The translations under genes were made by a program, and so were the position numbers. Positions 10,376 to 59,725 of a stretch of DNA of 64,000 nucleotides are shown one piece after another. Positions within the stretch are counted from its first letter, which is position 1; every line of letters begins with the position of its first letter. The DNA lies in the NCBI GenBank assembly GCA_017347465.1, contig AP021858.1, positions 124,001 through 188,000 of the forward strand. Reading direction: 5' to 3'. This DNA comes from Candidatus Nitrosymbiomonas proteolyticus (GTDB lineage Bacteria > Armatimonadota > Fimbriimonadia > Fimbriimonadales > Fimbriimonadaceae). The notes under the pieces are model-generated. The model made no database searches, was not told the origin of the DNA, and worked only from the letters and a program-made list of their open reading frames with translations.

Positions 10376-10948
10376 CTAAAGGATCAGGCCCTGGATGCTG
10401 GGGTGGCAGCGCAACCTTTCCATCGCCCTTGAGATCCGCTTGCGGACCTGCGGGGCGTTCATATCGCTGTTCGCGGCGATCTCTTCGGACGACATTCCGA
10501 GCGAATAGCGCATATGCAGCAACTCGCGATCCAGAACGTCGAGGGTATCGATCGCGGCCTTCAGAGCCTCACGCTCCCCGGCCAAAGCCCCCATTTCATA
10601 CGACAGAGATTGAACCTCGTCCACCGGAATATCAGCTATTCGCACTCTCACTTCCCTCCGACGGTGCGTTCGGACCGTGTTCGCCAGAAAGCCGACGAGC
10701 CACGATTCAAACGAACCCCTTGATTGGTCGAACTCTGGAATGCGGGCGAAAACCTGAAGCATCGTCTCTTGGACGATCTCTTCGTAGTCCTGGGGCTTGA
10801 GATTGTATCGGCGGACTATACGGTTCAGCGCCTCCCTTACCTTTCCGGCAAGGAGATCGCCGATTGGGCCGTCGCCTGACAAGTAACCCGGAATCAACTG
10901 TTCCGTATCGACATCGACAGACGCAGCGTCGCTAACCTCAACTCCCAT
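10376..10948 (-). CDS. ECF-type RNA polymerase sigma factor
   Basis: A protein of about 190 residues with sigma-70 regions 2 and 4. Region 2 is seen in YNLKPQDYEEIVQETMLQVF and FESWLVGFLANTVRTHRRR. Region 4 is LDVLDRELLHMRYSLGMSSEEIA followed by a helix-turn-helix (NAPQVRKRISRAMERLR). Size and the absence of region 3 indicate an ECF-like alternative sigma factor. A GTG at 10969 is possible, but ATG at 10948 has AAGGAG nine bases upstream and is preferred. No anti-sigma gene is adjacent on the same strand; a small zf-HC2 protein is encoded divergently about 490 bp away. Confidence 0.85.
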   Translation of the reverse strand: MGVEVSDAASVDVDTEQLIPGYLSGDGPIGDLLAGKVREALNRIVRRYNLKPQDYEEIVQETMLQVFARIPEFDQSRGSFESWLVGFLANTVRTHRRREVRVRIADIPVDEVQSLSYEMGALAGEREALKAAIDTLDVLDRELLHMRYSLGMSSEEIAANSDMNAPQVRKRISRAMERLRCHPSIQGLIL

Positions 10949-11436
10949 TCTCCCGTACTCCTTTAGCACATCCCCTTGCAGGGGAACCCGAAGACCCCTT
11001 TTCGGGACTTCGTTGAACCGCGTCTATCGACCCCGGAAAGCCCAAGGCCAACTACCGCGATTTCTATTCAGCCGATAGGTGATTGACGCCAAACCCTGAA
11101 ACTGTGACGCTTGGGGAACGGAAAACTCCGATTTCCAGTATTCATCACAGGTGCCGGCGCACATCCCATCGCAGGCGCTCGTAGACGCCCAGTTGGATTC
11201 TATCAAATGGACGCTCAACAGTGGCTCGCAAATGTACTAGCTTTGCCAAAACCCAGGTGAAATTGCCCTGCCGCAGCTTGGGCGGTACGGTTCGCCATGC
11301 CAGAAATCGAGGTCGGCGATTGTGACGGGGTTGATGGATTTTGCGAAACTTCCCGCATCGTGCCAGACCTGGTATGTTCGTGCGTCACAGTCAGGACCTC
11401 TAGCGTCAATACAAAGTGAAGCACAACTGATCCAGC
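10949..11436. other. 488-bp divergent intergenic region
   Basis: It separates the leftward sigma-factor gene from the rightward zf-HC2 gene and must hold promoters for both, but no clear -35/-10 pair stood out. Short minus-strand frames here have no family resemblance and no ribosome-binding site, so I do not call them. Confidence 0.5.
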
Positions 11437-11685
11437 ATGTTCCCCGAATCAACCCAACCCTATCAGGCTGAGGAGTCGTGTGCCGACGTCCGCGACCTGT
11501 TGCACGCGTTGATCGAGAACGACCTCGATGAAGACGACGCGAAGTGGGTTTTGCAGCACCTCGCCGAATGCGACGAATGCCGCGAAGCCCTCAAGCAGCA
11601 CGCCAAGCTGAGCGGCCTGGTGCTCCGCCATCTCCCTTGGCTTGGGATGGCTCATTTCGGCCAACGGGGCGCAACCGCGCATTAG
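11437..11685 (+). CDS. Small zf-HC2 (anti-sigma-type zinc-finger) protein
   Basis: An 82-residue soluble protein with the zf-HC2/ZAS motif: His41-x3-Cys45-x2-Cys48 (HLAECDEC), with an additional Cys at residue 15. In this family the motif binds zinc and usually forms the N-terminal cytoplasmic part of anti-sigma factors. Here no membrane helix or sensor domain follows, so it is a stand-alone ZAS module. A TMEM14-like membrane protein gene starts 42 bp downstream. An ECF sigma gene lies divergently upstream, making a sigma/anti-sigma relationship plausible but unproven. Confidence 0.75.
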   Translation: MFPESTQPYQAEESCADVRDLLHALIENDLDEDDAKWVLQHLAECDECREALKQHAKLSGLVLRHLPWLGMAHFGQRGATAH

Positions 11686-54342: not shown

Positions 54343-54507
54343 GTAGGATCGGACCCCTGGGATAACACCCGCTTTCGACCCTCGAAGGACACTCCAGTCA
54401 GAGTCTAGGGCCTTTCCCGCGAACTCGGGACGTCGAAATGTCTCCCCGCATTGAGACGTCGCAACCTCGTTGTAGAATGAATCAGGAAGGAGGGTCCTGA
54501 AGGAGGC

Positions 54508-56160
54508 GTGAACCCGACAGAAGTTAGAATCGAACTGTTCGATGGCCTGCGTGTGGTTTCGCAGGGCCGAAAGCTTGAGTTTACGCGCAGGCAAACGGGC
54601 CTCCTGCTCGCGCATCTCGGATTGGGCCTAGGCCGGTCGCTGAGCCGGGAGGAGTTGATCTGCCTACTCTGGCCCGATGACGACGCGGCTACCTCGAGGC
54701 AGCGACTTCGGCAGCGGCTCCATGTGCTGAAATCGACCCTCAATCGGTGGGTCCCCGGAGCGGGTGCGGTCGTTGTCTCCGATGCCGAGGAAGTCCTCCT
54801 CGATTCTGCAGTGTGCTCTTCGGATTGGGGGGACTTCGCCGAGAGTATGAGAAAGGGCCGGAGCGCTCTCGAACCGGATCAAGCAAGAGAGAGTTTCCGC
54901 AACGCTGTGGGCCTCGCCCAGGGTCCGCTGCTTCGGGGCTTCTATCACGATAGCGTTGCGTCAGCTCGAATGCACGCGGACGATGAACTCCAAGTGGCGC
55001 TGAATTGGCTGGTGAAAGACGCCCTGTCGAGCAATGAACTGGATCACGTCGCCGAAGACTGCCGCAGGCTCCTCGCATTGGATGAGCTGAGCGAGCAGAG
55101 CCACCTGCTCTCCATGCGCGCTTGGGGGCGTTTGGGCCGCTCAAGCGCCGTTGAGCGTCAATGCGCCCAATGGAAGCGTCTTGCGAAGGACGATCTCGGC
55201 GTCGAACCCTCGCTTGAATTCGTCGAAGGCTACGAGCTTGCGCTGAGCGAGAGTCGGCAGGCTCCCAAACTGAGCAAGCCCAGCCCCCTTGTGAAGACCG
55301 AGTCGTTGCTGCCGAAGCCAGTCTCCGATCTCGTCCCTTTGACCGCATCTCAACCGACATCGAGGAGGAGGCCTCACTCGGGCTGGCTCGCCCTGTCGGT
55401 TCTGCTCATCTTGAGCATCGCCGTCGCCGTCTTGCTGGCGAACTCTCGAAGCGGAACTCCGGTTCCCTCCGCGTCGAAAGTGGACTTTGGGAAGGGTTGG
55501 ACGAGCGATCGGGACCTCTCGGTGCATTTCGGGCAGGCATACGGAAAGGGCTTCAAGGGACCCAGGATTGAAAACGGCGTGTTGGTCCTTTCGGACGGCT
55601 TCACGGGGATTTCATCAAGCGTCTGGTGGCGTCAGCGTGTCAACACCCGTGTATTTACTTCGAAGTTCAGGTTCCGTGCCAAGAATCCGCCGGGGAATCC
55701 GGGGGGACTTGCCGATGGTTTCGCTTTTGTTCTCCAAGACGACGGGCTGGATGCCTTGGGCGCCGGGGGGATGGACCTCGGCTGTGGCGGCATCGTGCAG
55801 AGTGCAGCCGTATTCTTTGACTTTTATGCTCCCGAAGCCGCCCACGGCCCCAAGGGAATCTACTGGGGCGTGAGCCTGAATGGCGCAAGCCCGATCGCCG
55901 GCAGGTTTGCCGACGTGGACTTTGAGATCGACGCCGAGTTTGAGGTTACGGTGACCTACGACGGCGAGCATACGGTTCAGATGCATATGAGGAACCTCAA
56001 GAGCCAGAAGTCGGACACCATCGAACTGAAGCGGAGGATCAATTCCCTGTTTCCCGAGGGGTTGGCGTTTGTGGGTTTCACGGCCGGAACCGGAATGGGT
56101 TGGTCCCGTGTGGAAATCCTCGATTGGGAGTTCATCTCGGGCCAGCTACCCCAGAAATGA
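54508..56160 (+). CDS. Membrane-tethered SARP/BTAD-type regulator with external L-type lectin domain
   Basis: A 550-residue protein with an unusual order of domains. Residues 1-95 are a winged-helix OmpR/SARP-type DNA-binding domain (FTRRQTGLLLAHLGLG; EELICLLWPDDDAATSRQRLRQRLHVLK). Residues 105-245 are a BTAD-like helical domain (AEDCRRLLALDELSEQSHLL). RRRPH (287-291) precedes one membrane helix (about 293-311), giving an N-in orientation. Residues 325-545 resemble an L-type lectin (GLADGFAFVLQDDGLDALGAGG; IVQSAAVFFDFYAPE). This suggests a one-step receptor and transcription factor sensing a surface glycan. The start is GTG; AGGAGG ends one base before it, with a second GGAAGGAGG further up. 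Confidence 0.82.
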   Translation: MNPTEVRIELFDGLRVVSQGRKLEFTRRQTGLLLAHLGLGLGRSLSREELICLLWPDDDAATSRQRLRQRLHVLKSTLNRWVPGAGAVVVSDAEEVLLDSAVCSSDWGDFAESMRKGRSALEPDQARESFRNAVGLAQGPLLRGFYHDSVASARMHADDELQVALNWLVKDALSSNELDHVAEDCRRLLALDELSEQSHLLSMRAWGRLGRSSAVERQCAQWKRLAKDDLGVEPSLEFVEGYELALSESRQAPKLSKPSPLVKTESLLPKPVSDLVPLTASQPTSRRRPHSGWLALSVLLILSIAVAVLLANSRSGTPVPSASKVDFGKGWTSDRDLSVHFGQAYGKGFKGPRIENGVLVLSDGFTGISSSVWWRQRVNTRVFTSKFRFRAKNPPGNPGGLADGFAFVLQDDGLDALGAGGMDLGCGGIVQSAAVFFDFYAPEAAHGPKGIYWGVSLNGASPIAGRFADVDFEIDAEFEVTVTYDGEHTVQMHMRNLKSQKSDTIELKRRINSLFPEGLAFVGFTAGTGMGWSRVEILDWEFISGQLPQK

Positions 56161-56342
56161 CCCCGGCGCTCCGACGTTGGCGGGCCATTTCGAAGCGAAT
56201 TCGCTCCGATTTCGAAGTGTGACGGCAGAATCACGCCTACGTAACGACCGAGTTCCTATCCTATCCCCCGTCGCTCGGCCCAGCGCACCGGTTTCCCGGA
56301 TTTCGGAAAGCCTTCGGAGCCGCCGTGCGACGGGGGGACACG

Positions 56343-56966
56343 GTGAACAAGCATCCGATTTGCAAGGGGCCAGAAAGCCCAGGGAGGGGTTGGGAGAGAG
56401 AACCTCTGGGTCGGCAACGAATCGAGGCCGACGTCTTGGTGCGGCGATACGGCAACGACGTGGCCAACTACGTTCTCGGCTTTCGGCGAGTTCGATACGA
56501 GGACGCTGAAGAGATCGCGGCCGATACGCTTCTGACCGCCTTGGAACTTGCGCCGACTCTCCGTCCTTCGGCGTGCGTGCGGTCGTGGCTCTTTGCGATC
56601 GCGAGGCTCCGGATCGCAGACCATTTTCGGAAGGCGCTCGCCGCCAAGCGCCCCCAAGAGAGAAACCGCATCGCGAGTCTGGAGGAGATCGAAGGGGGGC
56701 GGGACGGGCCGCTTGCCCATGACCCGGTGCCTGAAGTCGTTGAGCGTCTTCATCATGAGTCGGTGGTTCGCGCGGCCCTTGCCGAGTTGAACGGCCTTGA
56801 GCGGAGGGCCCTGATCGGCCACTACGTCGCGGGGAAGAGCATTCACGAACTATCTCGGGAGTTCGGGAAGAGCCCCAAGGCGGTGGAATGTCTCTTGTCG
56901 AGGGCGAAGGCGAGAGCAAGGAGCGCGGTCGCCGAAGCCGACTCGCCTTGCGGCAGTTTCGACTGA
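56343..56966 (+). CDS. ECF-type sigma factor
   Basis: A 207-residue sigma-70-family protein. Region 2 is VLVRRYGNDVANYVLGFRRV followed by YEDAEEIAADTLLTALEL and SWLFAIARLRIADHFRKAL. Region 4 is LAELNGLERRALIGHYVAGKS followed by the helix-turn-helix IHELSREFGKSPKAVECLLSRAKAR. There is no visible anti-sigma partner. GTG 56343 with a GGGGGG run five bases upstream is preferred; GTG 56325 is also in frame. It follows the lectin-receptor regulator by 182 bp and precedes three PEP-CTERM genes, suggesting a shared regulatory circuit. Confidence 0.87.
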   Translation: MNKHPICKGPESPGRGWEREPLGRQRIEADVLVRRYGNDVANYVLGFRRVRYEDAEEIAADTLLTALELAPTLRPSACVRSWLFAIARLRIADHFRKALAAKRPQERNRIASLEEIEGGRDGPLAHDPVPEVVERLHHESVVRAALAELNGLERRALIGHYVAGKSIHELSREFGKSPKAVECLLSRAKARARSAVAEADSPCGSFD

Positions 56967-57035
56967 TAGCGGGCCCCGTCGATCGGGACTGTGTCCTTCC
57001 CCGCGACGGGGCCAACTTGAGGCCGTTGTGGGCCT

Positions 57036-57713
57036 CTAACCTCGCGCTTTTCGCCTCTTCTTTGCCCCAGCCGCCAGAACTGACGCGACCGAGAGAGCCA
57101 TCAACGTACCGGGCTCAGGCACTGCGGCGTACAACTCGATCTCTTCGATGCACACCGCTTGGCCGTAAGCCGTGACGTCGATCTTGACGTCCGTGACTCC
57201 GACCTGGGGAGCGAACGAATAGAGGTGCCGCAGCGAGTCCGTCGACGTGTAGTCTTGGAGTTCGACGCTGCCGATCACCTGCCACGTCTTGCCGGGGTCG
57301 AAGAACGGGAGCGCATCCGTCGAGACTTTGACGATGTACAGACCTGAGGTGCGCTCGTTCCAGGTCAAGGAACTGTCGCGCCCCCATGCGATTCGGTCGA
57401 TCGTTGCGGGCGTAGGCAGGCTGATGCCCGCCGTGGCGGTTTGCGTGGTTGGAATCCAGCTCGCTCCCGAGGAGCCCACCCCGTCCCCGAAGTTGATGTT
57501 GCCATTGTTTCCGTACCATCCGTCGTTGAGTCCCGAGATCGCGTGGAACGGGTAACCCGAAATCACGCTGCTGGCATGGGGTTGCGCCCCAAGAGTGGCC
57601 AGAGCTACGTTTCCGGCTTGGGGCACGCCCCCGATTTCGATGAGGTTCAGTTGAGCCATCGTAAGGGGCGTAACGAACAGCGCCGCGCCCCAGATGAGAA
57701 CGATTCGTGTCAT
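57036..57713 (-). CDS. PEP-CTERM surface protein, discoidin-like body
   Basis: A 225-residue exported protein: signal peptide (MTRIVLIWGAALFVTPLTMAQ), a beta-rich body and the tail VPEPGTLMALSVASVLAAGAKKRRK. The body (AISGLNDGWYGNNG; ISLPTPATIDRIAWGRDSS; VTDVKIDVTAYGQAVCIEEIELY) has the strand pattern of F5/8 type C (discoidin) domains, which bind sugars or lipids. AAAGGAG lies eight bases before the ATG. It is convergent with the ECF sigma gene. Confidence 0.88.
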   Translation of the reverse strand: MTRIVLIWGAALFVTPLTMAQLNLIEIGGVPQAGNVALATLGAQPHASSVISGYPFHAISGLNDGWYGNNGNINFGDGVGSSGASWIPTTQTATAGISLPTPATIDRIAWGRDSSLTWNERTSGLYIVKVSTDALPFFDPGKTWQVIGSVELQDYTSTDSLRHLYSFAPQVGVTDVKIDVTAYGQAVCIEEIELYAAVPEPGTLMALSVASVLAAGAKKRRKARG

Positions 57714-57848
57714 GGATTGTCTCCTTTGTAGAAAGAACGGGCGGGGTCGGAAAGTGCTGGGGGCCAGACTCGTTGAACCGGCCCCCGATGGCTCCTTTCA
57801 GTGCCGTGCACTCAACCCACCCATGAAGGTTCTATGCGCAAATGCCGA

Positions 57849-58469
57849 TTAGCGGCGACGGCTCCTCCTTCGGACGAGGGCGATCGCCCCCAGAGCCAAA
57901 GTTCCGAGTGTCGCCGGCTCCGGAACCGTCGAAAACTTGAAGTTCGGGCCGGTATAGGTCGTGTAGGAGCCCATAGAGTTTCCCCCGTCGGAGACTCCTC
58001 CCCAGCCGTTGTAACGAGCTCCATTCGCCAGAACGGTGATCTCAGGCGCGTACGTTTCCGTGGCGTGCAGGTTCGTAGTGTGAGCGTCAATTCCGTTGTG
58101 GCCCCAGATGATGTAGTCCCTGCCCGTGATGAGTTGCACAGGGGTCACGGCCTTGTACCGAAAGAACCCATCGAGCGTTTCGACAGTCCCAGCACTAAGA
58201 TCTGCGTAGGCAACCAACACGTCAGTGTCCCACTCGAAGACTCCAACCTCGACGCTGGACGCGAATCCGTCCATTTCCAGGTCAAAATTGCCCAGATCGG
58301 TCAGCCAGATATCTTGGTTCGGCACGAACCGCCAGCCAAGCTTTCCAGTCCATAAATGCCAAGATGTGACGGCCGTCATCTGGATGGCTGCCGACGAAGC
58401 GAGGGCGGGCGCGGCAATCGCCGCCGCTACCCCAATCGATGCCAAGGCCCGAAGAGTGATTGATTTCAT
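57849..58469 (-). CDS. PEP-CTERM surface protein
   Basis: A 206-residue exported protein: signal peptide (MKSITLRALASIGVAAAIAAPALA), a body containing WHLWTGKLGWRFVPNQDIWLTDLG and RDYIIWGHNGIDAHT, and the tail VPEPATLGTLALGAIALVRRRSRR. The body has the look of a small beta sandwich with no named family recognised. The open frame runs to 58676, but AAGGAG ahead of ATG 58469 and the signal peptide decide the start. It lies 135 bp upstream of the other leftward PEP-CTERM gene, so the two may share a transcript. Confidence 0.87.
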   Translation of the reverse strand: MKSITLRALASIGVAAAIAAPALASSAAIQMTAVTSWHLWTGKLGWRFVPNQDIWLTDLGNFDLEMDGFASSVEVGVFEWDTDVLVAYADLSAGTVETLDGFFRYKAVTPVQLITGRDYIIWGHNGIDAHTTNLHATETYAPEITVLANGARYNGWGGVSDGGNSMGSYTTYTGPNFKFSTVPEPATLGTLALGAIALVRRRSRRR

Positions 58470-58810
58470 TTGTTGTTGCTCCTTTTCAGTCATTGGGTGC
58501 GCCCCATTTGGGCGCCCATCAAGGGAAGTCGCAAGAACGCCACAAAACCCCTCACCGGCCCTCAAAAATGCTGCCCCAGAGGATGATTCCGCCCCCCTCG
58601 CTGCGGGCTGGTGGCATCGGCCGGACCCGCTGGGAGCCCCTTTTCCAACGCCGAAGTATTGCGGATTCTGTCGCAAGCCCAGGTCGCTTTCCTATACTTT
58701 ACAGCTTTGAATACTAACTTTCCGTCACACAATGGACGCTATCGGACAAGTACGTATTAGGCGAACCACTTCTCGGTTCCATCTTTTCAATCACGAAAAA
58801 GGAGTGTGAA
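58470..58810. other. 341-bp divergent region between two PEP-CTERM genes
   Basis: An imperfect palindrome (GCGCCCCATTTGGGCGCC core, near 58498-58515) lies close to the leftward gene and could be an operator or an RNA hairpin. Further right are T/A-rich boxes, for example TATACT near 58694, but no confident -35/-10 pair. No gene is seen. Confidence 0.5.
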
Positions 58811-59725
58811 ATGACGAATCATAAGTCATATGGCCGCGCGTTTGCGTGGCGCACGATGATGTTGGCCTTTTCGGCCACCTCACTGGCGAGCCTCGCGCTT
58901 GCGGATCCGTTTGTCGTCGATTCCGATATGTTCGGGTACGACATTACCGTTACTCGATATGGCTCACTGGCTGACGCTATGGCGCAGCAGAACGCCGTAT
59001 CTGGGCCTCACACCGTGCTCGGCGCCGACCCCTCCGATCCGAGGGGAGGAATGCGAGACGTGTGGATGGGATTCTATAAGGATAGGCCCTCGTATTACAA
59101 CAACTTCGCCGGTTTGATGACCGCGTGGTATTTCACGCTCGATCCCAACCAAGGCGACGGGTGGGGTAACCCCAACAATACGAATACCGGCTTCGTTCAG
59201 GTCTACGACAACATGGCGGATTCGGTCGTATCCTGGACCGGCGGCTGGAGTACCTTAGCTCCCGGCGTCGGTGACGGAAGCAGTTTCACCTTCACCGTCA
59301 CCGGCGGGATGCACGCCGATCCCGCCGAGTACCCGAGGCTTTGGGCAGCTCCTGAAATCGGGGGCGCGGGCGAAATCACGAAGGGCATCTTCCATGAATA
59401 CTACGTGAGCGCGACCGTTACCGGCCTGACCGCCAACGACGACGGCTTCGGGTGGTATGAGTCCATGGACGCTCCCGGAGGCATCTCCGGCGGGTTCACC
59501 GGCATCTTCGAGAATCAGAGCACGACGCGGCCTGAACTCAACGGGTTCTATTACTTCAGCGGTGCGCTGAACATGGACAACTGGGCGGTTGCGAACGGAG
59601 GCACTTGGGGCGGCGGGGTGTACAGTCCGTACGCCTACTTCGGCGCGGTGCCGGAGCCTGGCAGCATGGCTGCGCTCGGTCTCGGGATGCTTGCGCTCAA
59701 GTTGCGCCGGCGCTCCCGACGCTGA
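58811..59725 (+). CDS. PEP-CTERM surface protein
   Basis: A 304-residue exported protein: signal region (RTMMLAFSATSLASLALA), a Gly/Asn/Trp-rich body and the tail VPEPGSMAALGLGMLALKLRRRSRR. The body includes GYDITVTRYGSLADAM and YPRLWAAPEIGGAGEI; no named domain was recognised. A strong AAAAAGGAG lies before the ATG. It is divergent from the second leftward PEP-CTERM gene and is followed by a terminator, so it is monocistronic. Confidence 0.88.
   Translation: MTNHKSYGRAFAWRTMMLAFSATSLASLALADPFVVDSDMFGYDITVTRYGSLADAMAQQNAVSGPHTVLGADPSDPRGGMRDVWMGFYKDRPSYYNNFAGLMTAWYFTLDPNQGDGWGNPNNTNTGFVQVYDNMADSVVSWTGGWSTLAPGVGDGSSFTFTVTGGMHADPAEYPRLWAAPEIGGAGEITKGIFHEYYVSATVTGLTANDDGFGWYESMDAPGGISGGFTGIFENQSTTRPELNGFYYFSGALNMDNWAVANGGTWGGGVYSPYAYFGAVPEPGSMAALGLGMLALKLRRRSRR

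Follow-up and report, generated by a model that had tools for sequence, protein, structure and literature searches.

Our analysis covers a window of 64,000 nucleotides (bases 124001-188000 of the complete 2.81 Mb genome) of Candidatus Nitrosymbiomonas proteolyticus, in which the genes for a SARP-type regulator with a lectin-like domain, an extracytoplasmic function (ECF) sigma factor and three PEP-CTERM proteins (PEP1, PEP2 and PEP3) lie in the order nrdR, nrdJ, SARP-lectin (+), ECF sigma (+), PEP1 (-), PEP2 (-), PEP3 (+) and uvrB (+). We think it rather probable that two regulatory layers meet at this locus, a family-wide ECF/anti-sigma regulon of PEP-CTERM genes and a species-specific layer running from the SARP to the orphan sigma factor beside it. 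In the family-wide layer a second ECF sigma factor, encoded at 10376 and divergent from a zf-HC2 gene at 11437, would recognise CGTCACA-N15-GACAAT and control its own gene, its anti-sigma and about 9-13 of 71 PEP-CTERM genes scattered over the genome, PEP3 among them. In the species-specific layer the membrane-anchored SARP, with its lectin-like ectodomain, would be made from a housekeeping promoter and, upon a signal from outside, would activate the adjoining orphan ECF gene (at 56325) via three 11-bp-spaced heptads at 56189-56217, which lie beside a weak -10 (56226). Because the partner usual among its relatives is absent, the orphan sigma factor would itself be controlled through its amount.

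The family-wide layer would be carried by a promoter motif. When the upstream regions of 71 PEP-CTERM genes were extracted for a motif search, GTCAC-N16-GACAA was found in perfect form before 6 and in near-perfect form before 12 of them, compared with 0 and 0.37 in shuffles, and the 71 regions held no perfect copies at other spacings. The extended element CGTCACA-N15-GACAAT precedes 9-13 of these genes, and a matrix built from relatives only, at a threshold of 17 bits, recovers 9 of the 71, whereas neither a shifted spacing nor the reverse strand gives any match. Exact copies number 14 in the genome, 6 of which sit 22-73 bp before PEP-CTERM starts. Two more copies that do not precede PEP-CTERM genes lie at genome positions 455004 (L183 position 1500), some 200 bp upstream of what may be a gene for a secreted protein, and 2507406 (L194 position 1500). 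A shared -35/-10 motif before PEP-CTERM genes genome-wide, which the initial annotation of this DNA had proposed looking for, does therefore exist, but it is absent from PEP1 and PEP2, which have no common promoter of any kind; the scan was likewise negative upstream of the 56325 sigma gene and the SARP-lectin regulator.

Conservation was searched in 60 relatives (labelled in a G000 series). The motif also precedes PEP-CTERM genes in G001, G010, G024 and G035; among carriers of a 10376-type ECF the copies placed in this way are 4/6 in G001 and 5/6 in G010, plus the tested copies in G024 and G035, and none of these four genomes has the full-length regulator. In 11 family genomes without a 10376-type ECF, 0 of 20 hand-picked copies stand before a PEP-CTERM gene, and nearly all are inside open reading frames (ORFs).

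After the PEP3 copy, the next strong copies in the window flank the divergent 10376/11437 pair, 45 kb from the PEP-CTERM cluster. Homologues of the 10376 ECF, whose protein ends after region 4, occur in 27 of the 60 relatives, with 52% identity within the genus. The divergent zinc-finger layout with facing motif copies in the intergenic region, as seen for the pair of this genome, is found in G000, G001, G035, G028 and G006, while at least one copy is present at the ECF/zinc-finger locus of G011, G010, G020 and G017; this layout and the motif are our grounds for inferring that the ECFs outside the genus are orthologous. Above 17 bits the motif has 8 matches in 84 kb of ECF/zinc-finger loci, whereas the control ECF loci, 196 kb in all, gave 0. 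In several genera, then, the motif is linked both to PEP-CTERM genes and to the ECF/anti-sigma-type pair. Its place before both the ECF and the zf-HC2 gene is what autoregulation would predict, and the pair, most simply read as autoregulated, with the zinc-finger protein as the putative anti-sigma, likely controls part of the PEP-CTERM set. The Armatimonadota family thereby gains a concrete candidate for PEP-CTERM control, in which the -35/-10 element, the sigma/anti-sigma pair and the target genes are all specified. The initial annotation had supposed a wiring other than sigma54, and ECF control of PEP-CTERM genes does look right, but through the 10376 ECF and not the sigma factor beside the regulator.

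The element might be no ECF promoter but a housekeeping one whose -35 is overlaid by an activator site. In favour of this, GACAAT is like TATAAT/TACAAT at several positions, and other PEP-CTERM genes here do carry plain TATAAT-type elements. However, the spacing is rigid, the motif precedes an ECF gene and its anti-sigma-like gene, and its -35 is near-identical to that of the ECF41 promoter TGTCACA-N16-CGTC, so that we regard a housekeeping promoter as improbable.

The regulator of the species-specific layer contains a BTAD domain at residues 106-238 (PF03704, E 1e-12, 49.1 bits against a cut-off of 22.1) and aligns to the AfsR model at residues 6-246, with a weak match to an OmpR-type winged helix-turn-helix (wHTH) at its N-terminus (Trans_reg_C 15.1 bits, under the cut-off of 26.2). 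A single transmembrane (TM) segment follows at about residues 293-311 and a lectin-like region at 355-530, a combination that points to a membrane-tethered activator of the SARP type. This joining of a SARP via a membrane helix to a lectin-like domain is an unusual receptor design, and it comes with a predicted operator. The lectin-like region matches the L-type lectin model PF18483 with E 2.5e-9, but its 37.7 bits are under the Pfam cut-off of 78.3, and it matches legume lectins in the PDB with E 6e-7. We take the Ca/Mn ligands of legume lectins to be E-D-N-D-H; where the legume lectin reads EFDTLYN..D..H the regulator reads FFDFYAPE..G..Y, giving F, D, P/E, G and Y at the canonical positions, with 1 of 5 kept (the first Asp) and the ADG loop retained. 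Because most of the canonical metal/sugar ligands are lost, sugar binding of the usual kind is doubtful, and the earlier proposal that the receptor senses matrix sugars is weakened despite the legume-lectin alignment; the ectodomain is best described as a putative sensor. A single-sequence AlphaFold model of the regulator (pLDDT 43) was too poor for a fold search.

Apart from one match to the lectin part, the 60 relatives match the regulator in its SARP part only. L-type lectins are present in just four of them: G058, G001 and G017 have secreted lectins of the PEP-CTERM kind, and the lectin of G047 likewise looks secreted. In G017 (L131, 8496-11109) 74 bp separate the gene for the secreted PEP-CTERM lectin from a BTAD regulator gene downstream of it, a possible hint at a fusion origin of the regulator, though this is one case only, in a genome with ten BTAD matches.

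No anti-sigma-like ORF adjoins the 56325 sigma gene. The closest relatives of this sigma factor are 36-40% identical, and G010 has no homologue at E 1e-5. In the related ECF subgroup (L097-L103; G031, G052, G005, G050 and G001) the sigma gene is mostly followed by one for a large protein (1000-1390 aa) that has a TM helix and ends in a TPR-like region, possibly a new kind of anti-sigma partner, and this large protein is absent beside the 56325 sigma. Upstream of the 56325 sigma gene lies the candidate operator. The direct repeats to which SARPs bind are spaced by 11 or 22 bp, the last of them 8 bp from the -10 (PMC10936776), and their sites often consist of three heptads with 4-nt spacers (PMC10972967). 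The array at 56189-56217 is the top 11-bp triple in the 64 kb, is the sole exact copy in the genome, and has a P of 0.005 in shuffles of its own region, a value that serves as a guide only, since the pattern had already caught our eye when the test was designed. Look-alikes genome-wide number 9 at ≤3 mismatches, the 56189 array included (1 in the control), mostly inside ORFs, and we did not take them as targets. Directly after the array, and overlapping the proposed -10, lies a second triple of 11-bp period (TGACGGC-AGAA-TCACGCC-TACG-TAACGAC, 56220-56248).

The same array could form a weak hairpin or be an inverted-repeat operator to which some other regulator, repressor or activator, binds, as it contains the palindrome GCGAATTCGC and two TTCGAA palindromes. 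Against this, the triple repeat of 11-bp period adjoins a SARP gene, and a search of the array found no terminator-like site; we nevertheless rate a function other than SARP binding as a substantial possibility, a little short of an even chance. The earlier suggestion that the receptor drives the sigma factor gains some support from a SARP-box-like operator directly upstream of the sigma gene, and falls short of proof.

Several points weigh against the two-layer model. Outside the genus the 10376 ECF homologues are just 27-39% identical, G024 has the pair yet no motif above 12 bits near it, and the genome has several ECFs besides the 10376 and 56325 factors weighed here as motif readers. The sites in the genomes lacking the ECF were picked by eye and unblinded, and the full motif matrix contains some sites later scored with it. 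Most PEP-CTERM genes, including PEP1 and PEP2, are without the motif, and a G028 sample of 7 PEP-CTERM genes (400 kb) held zero copies; the -10 co-variation test in G028 had no power because these 7 genes were all it offered and none bears the motif. As for the species-specific layer, the SARP box was recognised post hoc, the -10 that goes with it is weak, and the sequence can equally be seen as an imperfect palindrome. Every regulatory link is a prediction from sequence. In its fullest form the model has a tethered SARP, whose lectin-derived ectodomain was probably taken over from a secreted PEP-CTERM lectin, directly switching on the orphan ECF via the SARP box, atop a family-wide ECF/anti-sigma regulon that stands in for the sigma54/PrsR control found in Proteobacteria, and in that form we would put it forward only tentatively.

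The gene content described in the initial annotation is real, namely a SARP-lectin regulator, an ECF sigma without an adjacent anti-sigma and three PEP-CTERM genes, but the statement that these follow one another hides the orientation: PEP1 and PEP2 are convergent with the 56325 sigma gene, PEP3 being the single plus-strand gene of the three. All three PEP-CTERM tails are above the PF07589 cut-off and the genome has one exosortase. For a discoidin-like body in PEP1 we found no support, as the protein has no Pfam or PDB sequence match and its single-sequence AlphaFold model (pLDDT 30) was too poor for a fold search. Searches with defence-system models gave no match.

How much the neighbourhood itself means is a separate question. 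With ~72 PEP-CTERM genes in 2.81 Mb, frequently paired, a given gene has a ~5% chance of adjoining one, so that adjacency to PEP-CTERM genes is cheap evidence; no other group is as dense as these three genes in 3 kb. The local cluster is not conserved: of the 20 relatives compared at this site, 0 have the regulators upstream of uvrB. PEP-CTERM genes adjoin uvrB in G001 and G018 (L106, L107), without the regulators. Chance could have brought a SARP-lectin gene peculiar to this species, together with an orphan sigma, into a nrdJ-uvrB gap that also gathered PEP-CTERM genes, without functional meaning. The commonness of such neighbours, the relatives with PEP-CTERM genes but no regulators at this site, and the lack of both regulators in G001 all fit a chance cluster, which we consider rather unlikely in view of the unusual SARP-box-like array before the sigma gene and of purifying selection. 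The latter is seen against a near-identical strain, Chthonomonadaceae bacterium H1_ARM1 (CP054189.1; 97% DNA identity across 17.5 kb), with a dN/dS of 0.12 for the regulator, 0.34 for the 56325 sigma, where just 8 changes enter the estimate, and 0.10-0.34 for PEP1, PEP2 and PEP3, low values from which all of them look functional.

Very unlikely, in our estimate, is the circuit first proposed for this locus, in which the sigma factor is activated by the lectin receptor encoded next to it and then transcribes the PEP-CTERM genes at its side. Adjacency, the SARP-box-like operator before the sigma gene and an ECF-type promoter 61 bp before the PEP3 start are what it would predict. That promoter, however, is missing from PEP1, PEP2 and the 56325 sigma gene itself, occurs before PEP-CTERM genes in genomes without the 56325 sigma, and tracks another ECF/anti-sigma pair; and the 60 relatives yielded neither of the two regulators themselves nor their adjacency, whose conservation had been set beforehand as the refuting test. 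Control of the neighbouring PEP-CTERM genes by the adjacent sigma is unsupported, and the CGTCACA regulon is probably not among the targets of the orphan sigma factor.

Table 1. Features of the window (positions count from its first nucleotide)
Feature	Position	Strand	Basis or remark
Second ECF sigma factor, 197 aa	10376..10969	-	Sigma70_r2 3.4e-13; likely motif reader
Motif copy CGTCACA-N15-GTCAAT upstream of the 10376 ECF	11083..11109 (scan position 11108)	-	motif scan
Motif copy upstream of the zf-HC2 gene	11383..11409 (scan position 11384)	+	motif scan
zf-HC2 anti-sigma-like protein, 82 aa	11437..11685	+	PF13490 E 6.9e-10; RsrA model E 4.5e-6, under its cut-off
Sigma70-type promoter of the SARP-lectin gene, TTGAGA-N16-TAGAAT	54451..54478	+	consensus scan, 10/12 matches
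SARP/BTAD regulator, 550 aa	54508..56160	+	BTAD, TM helix, L-type-lectin-like C-terminal domain
Candidate SARP operator TTCGAAG-CGAA-TTCGCTC-CGAT-TTCGAAG	56189..56217	+	three heptads, 11-bp period
Possible -10, CAGAAT	56226..56231	+	8 bp past last heptad; weak, recognised post hoc
Orphan ECF sigma factor	56325..56966	+	Sigma70_r2 3.8e-9, r4_2 1.3e-8; alternative start GTG at 56343
PEP-CTERM protein 1 (PEP1)	57036..57713	-	PF07589 21.4 bits
PEP-CTERM protein 2 (PEP2)	57849..58469	-	PF07589 25.7 bits; ATG at 58469
PEP-CTERM motif CGTCACA-N15-GACAAG before PEP3	58723..58750	+	top motif score in window, 24.2 bits; 61 bp before start
PEP-CTERM protein 3 (PEP3)	58811..59725	+	PF07589 28.2 bits

Membrane one-component regulators of the ToxR/CadC type have an N-terminal winged helix, one TM helix and a C-terminal sensor outside. 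The SARP-lectin regulator shares the N-terminal winged helix (again as a weak match), the single TM helix and the C-terminal outside domain, but differs in the BTAD between wHTH and TM helix and in its lectin-like ectodomain; to our knowledge regulators of this type are not known as membrane-bound activators of an ECF gene. With SARPs (AfsR, DnrI, ActII-ORF4, PimR) it has in common the OmpR-type wHTH (a weak match here) followed by a BTAD, together with candidate direct repeats of heptads on an 11-bp period, the last 8 bp from the -10 (PMC10936776, PMC10972967), where binding is predicted, and like PimR on pimM it would act on the gene of another regulator. Where known SARPs have NOD/TPR or nothing in the C-terminal half, this one has a TM helix followed by the lectin-like ectodomain, and the phylum, Armatimonadota, differs as well.

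The family-wide element resembles the ECF41 promoter, TGTCACA-N16-CGTC (PMC3426412), in its nearly identical -35, its about equal spacing and its occurrence before the sigma gene as well. In contrast to ECF41 the -10 is GACAAT instead of CGTC, the 197-aa 10376 sigma has no room for a C-terminal extension, and its partner is a zf-HC2 protein and not a COE gene. Among the papers searched, none combines PEP-CTERM, 'ECF sigma' and 'regulon'. Proteobacterial PEP-CTERM control is by sigma54 with PrsR/PrsK (Haft 2006, PMC1569441), pepA being RpoN-dependent (PMC9850573), and control in Nostoc is partly SigJ-dependent (PMC12188702); Haft and colleagues already noted in 2006 that many PEP-CTERM genes in and beyond Proteobacteria must have other regulators and motifs (PMC1569441). 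Like the PrsK/PrsR system, the one described here has a cis element common to a subset of PEP-CTERM genes and a regulator that tracks this element across genomes, but in place of a -24/-12 site (GG-N10-GC) with an enhancer-binding protein it has a -35/-10 pair with an ECF/zinc-finger pair.

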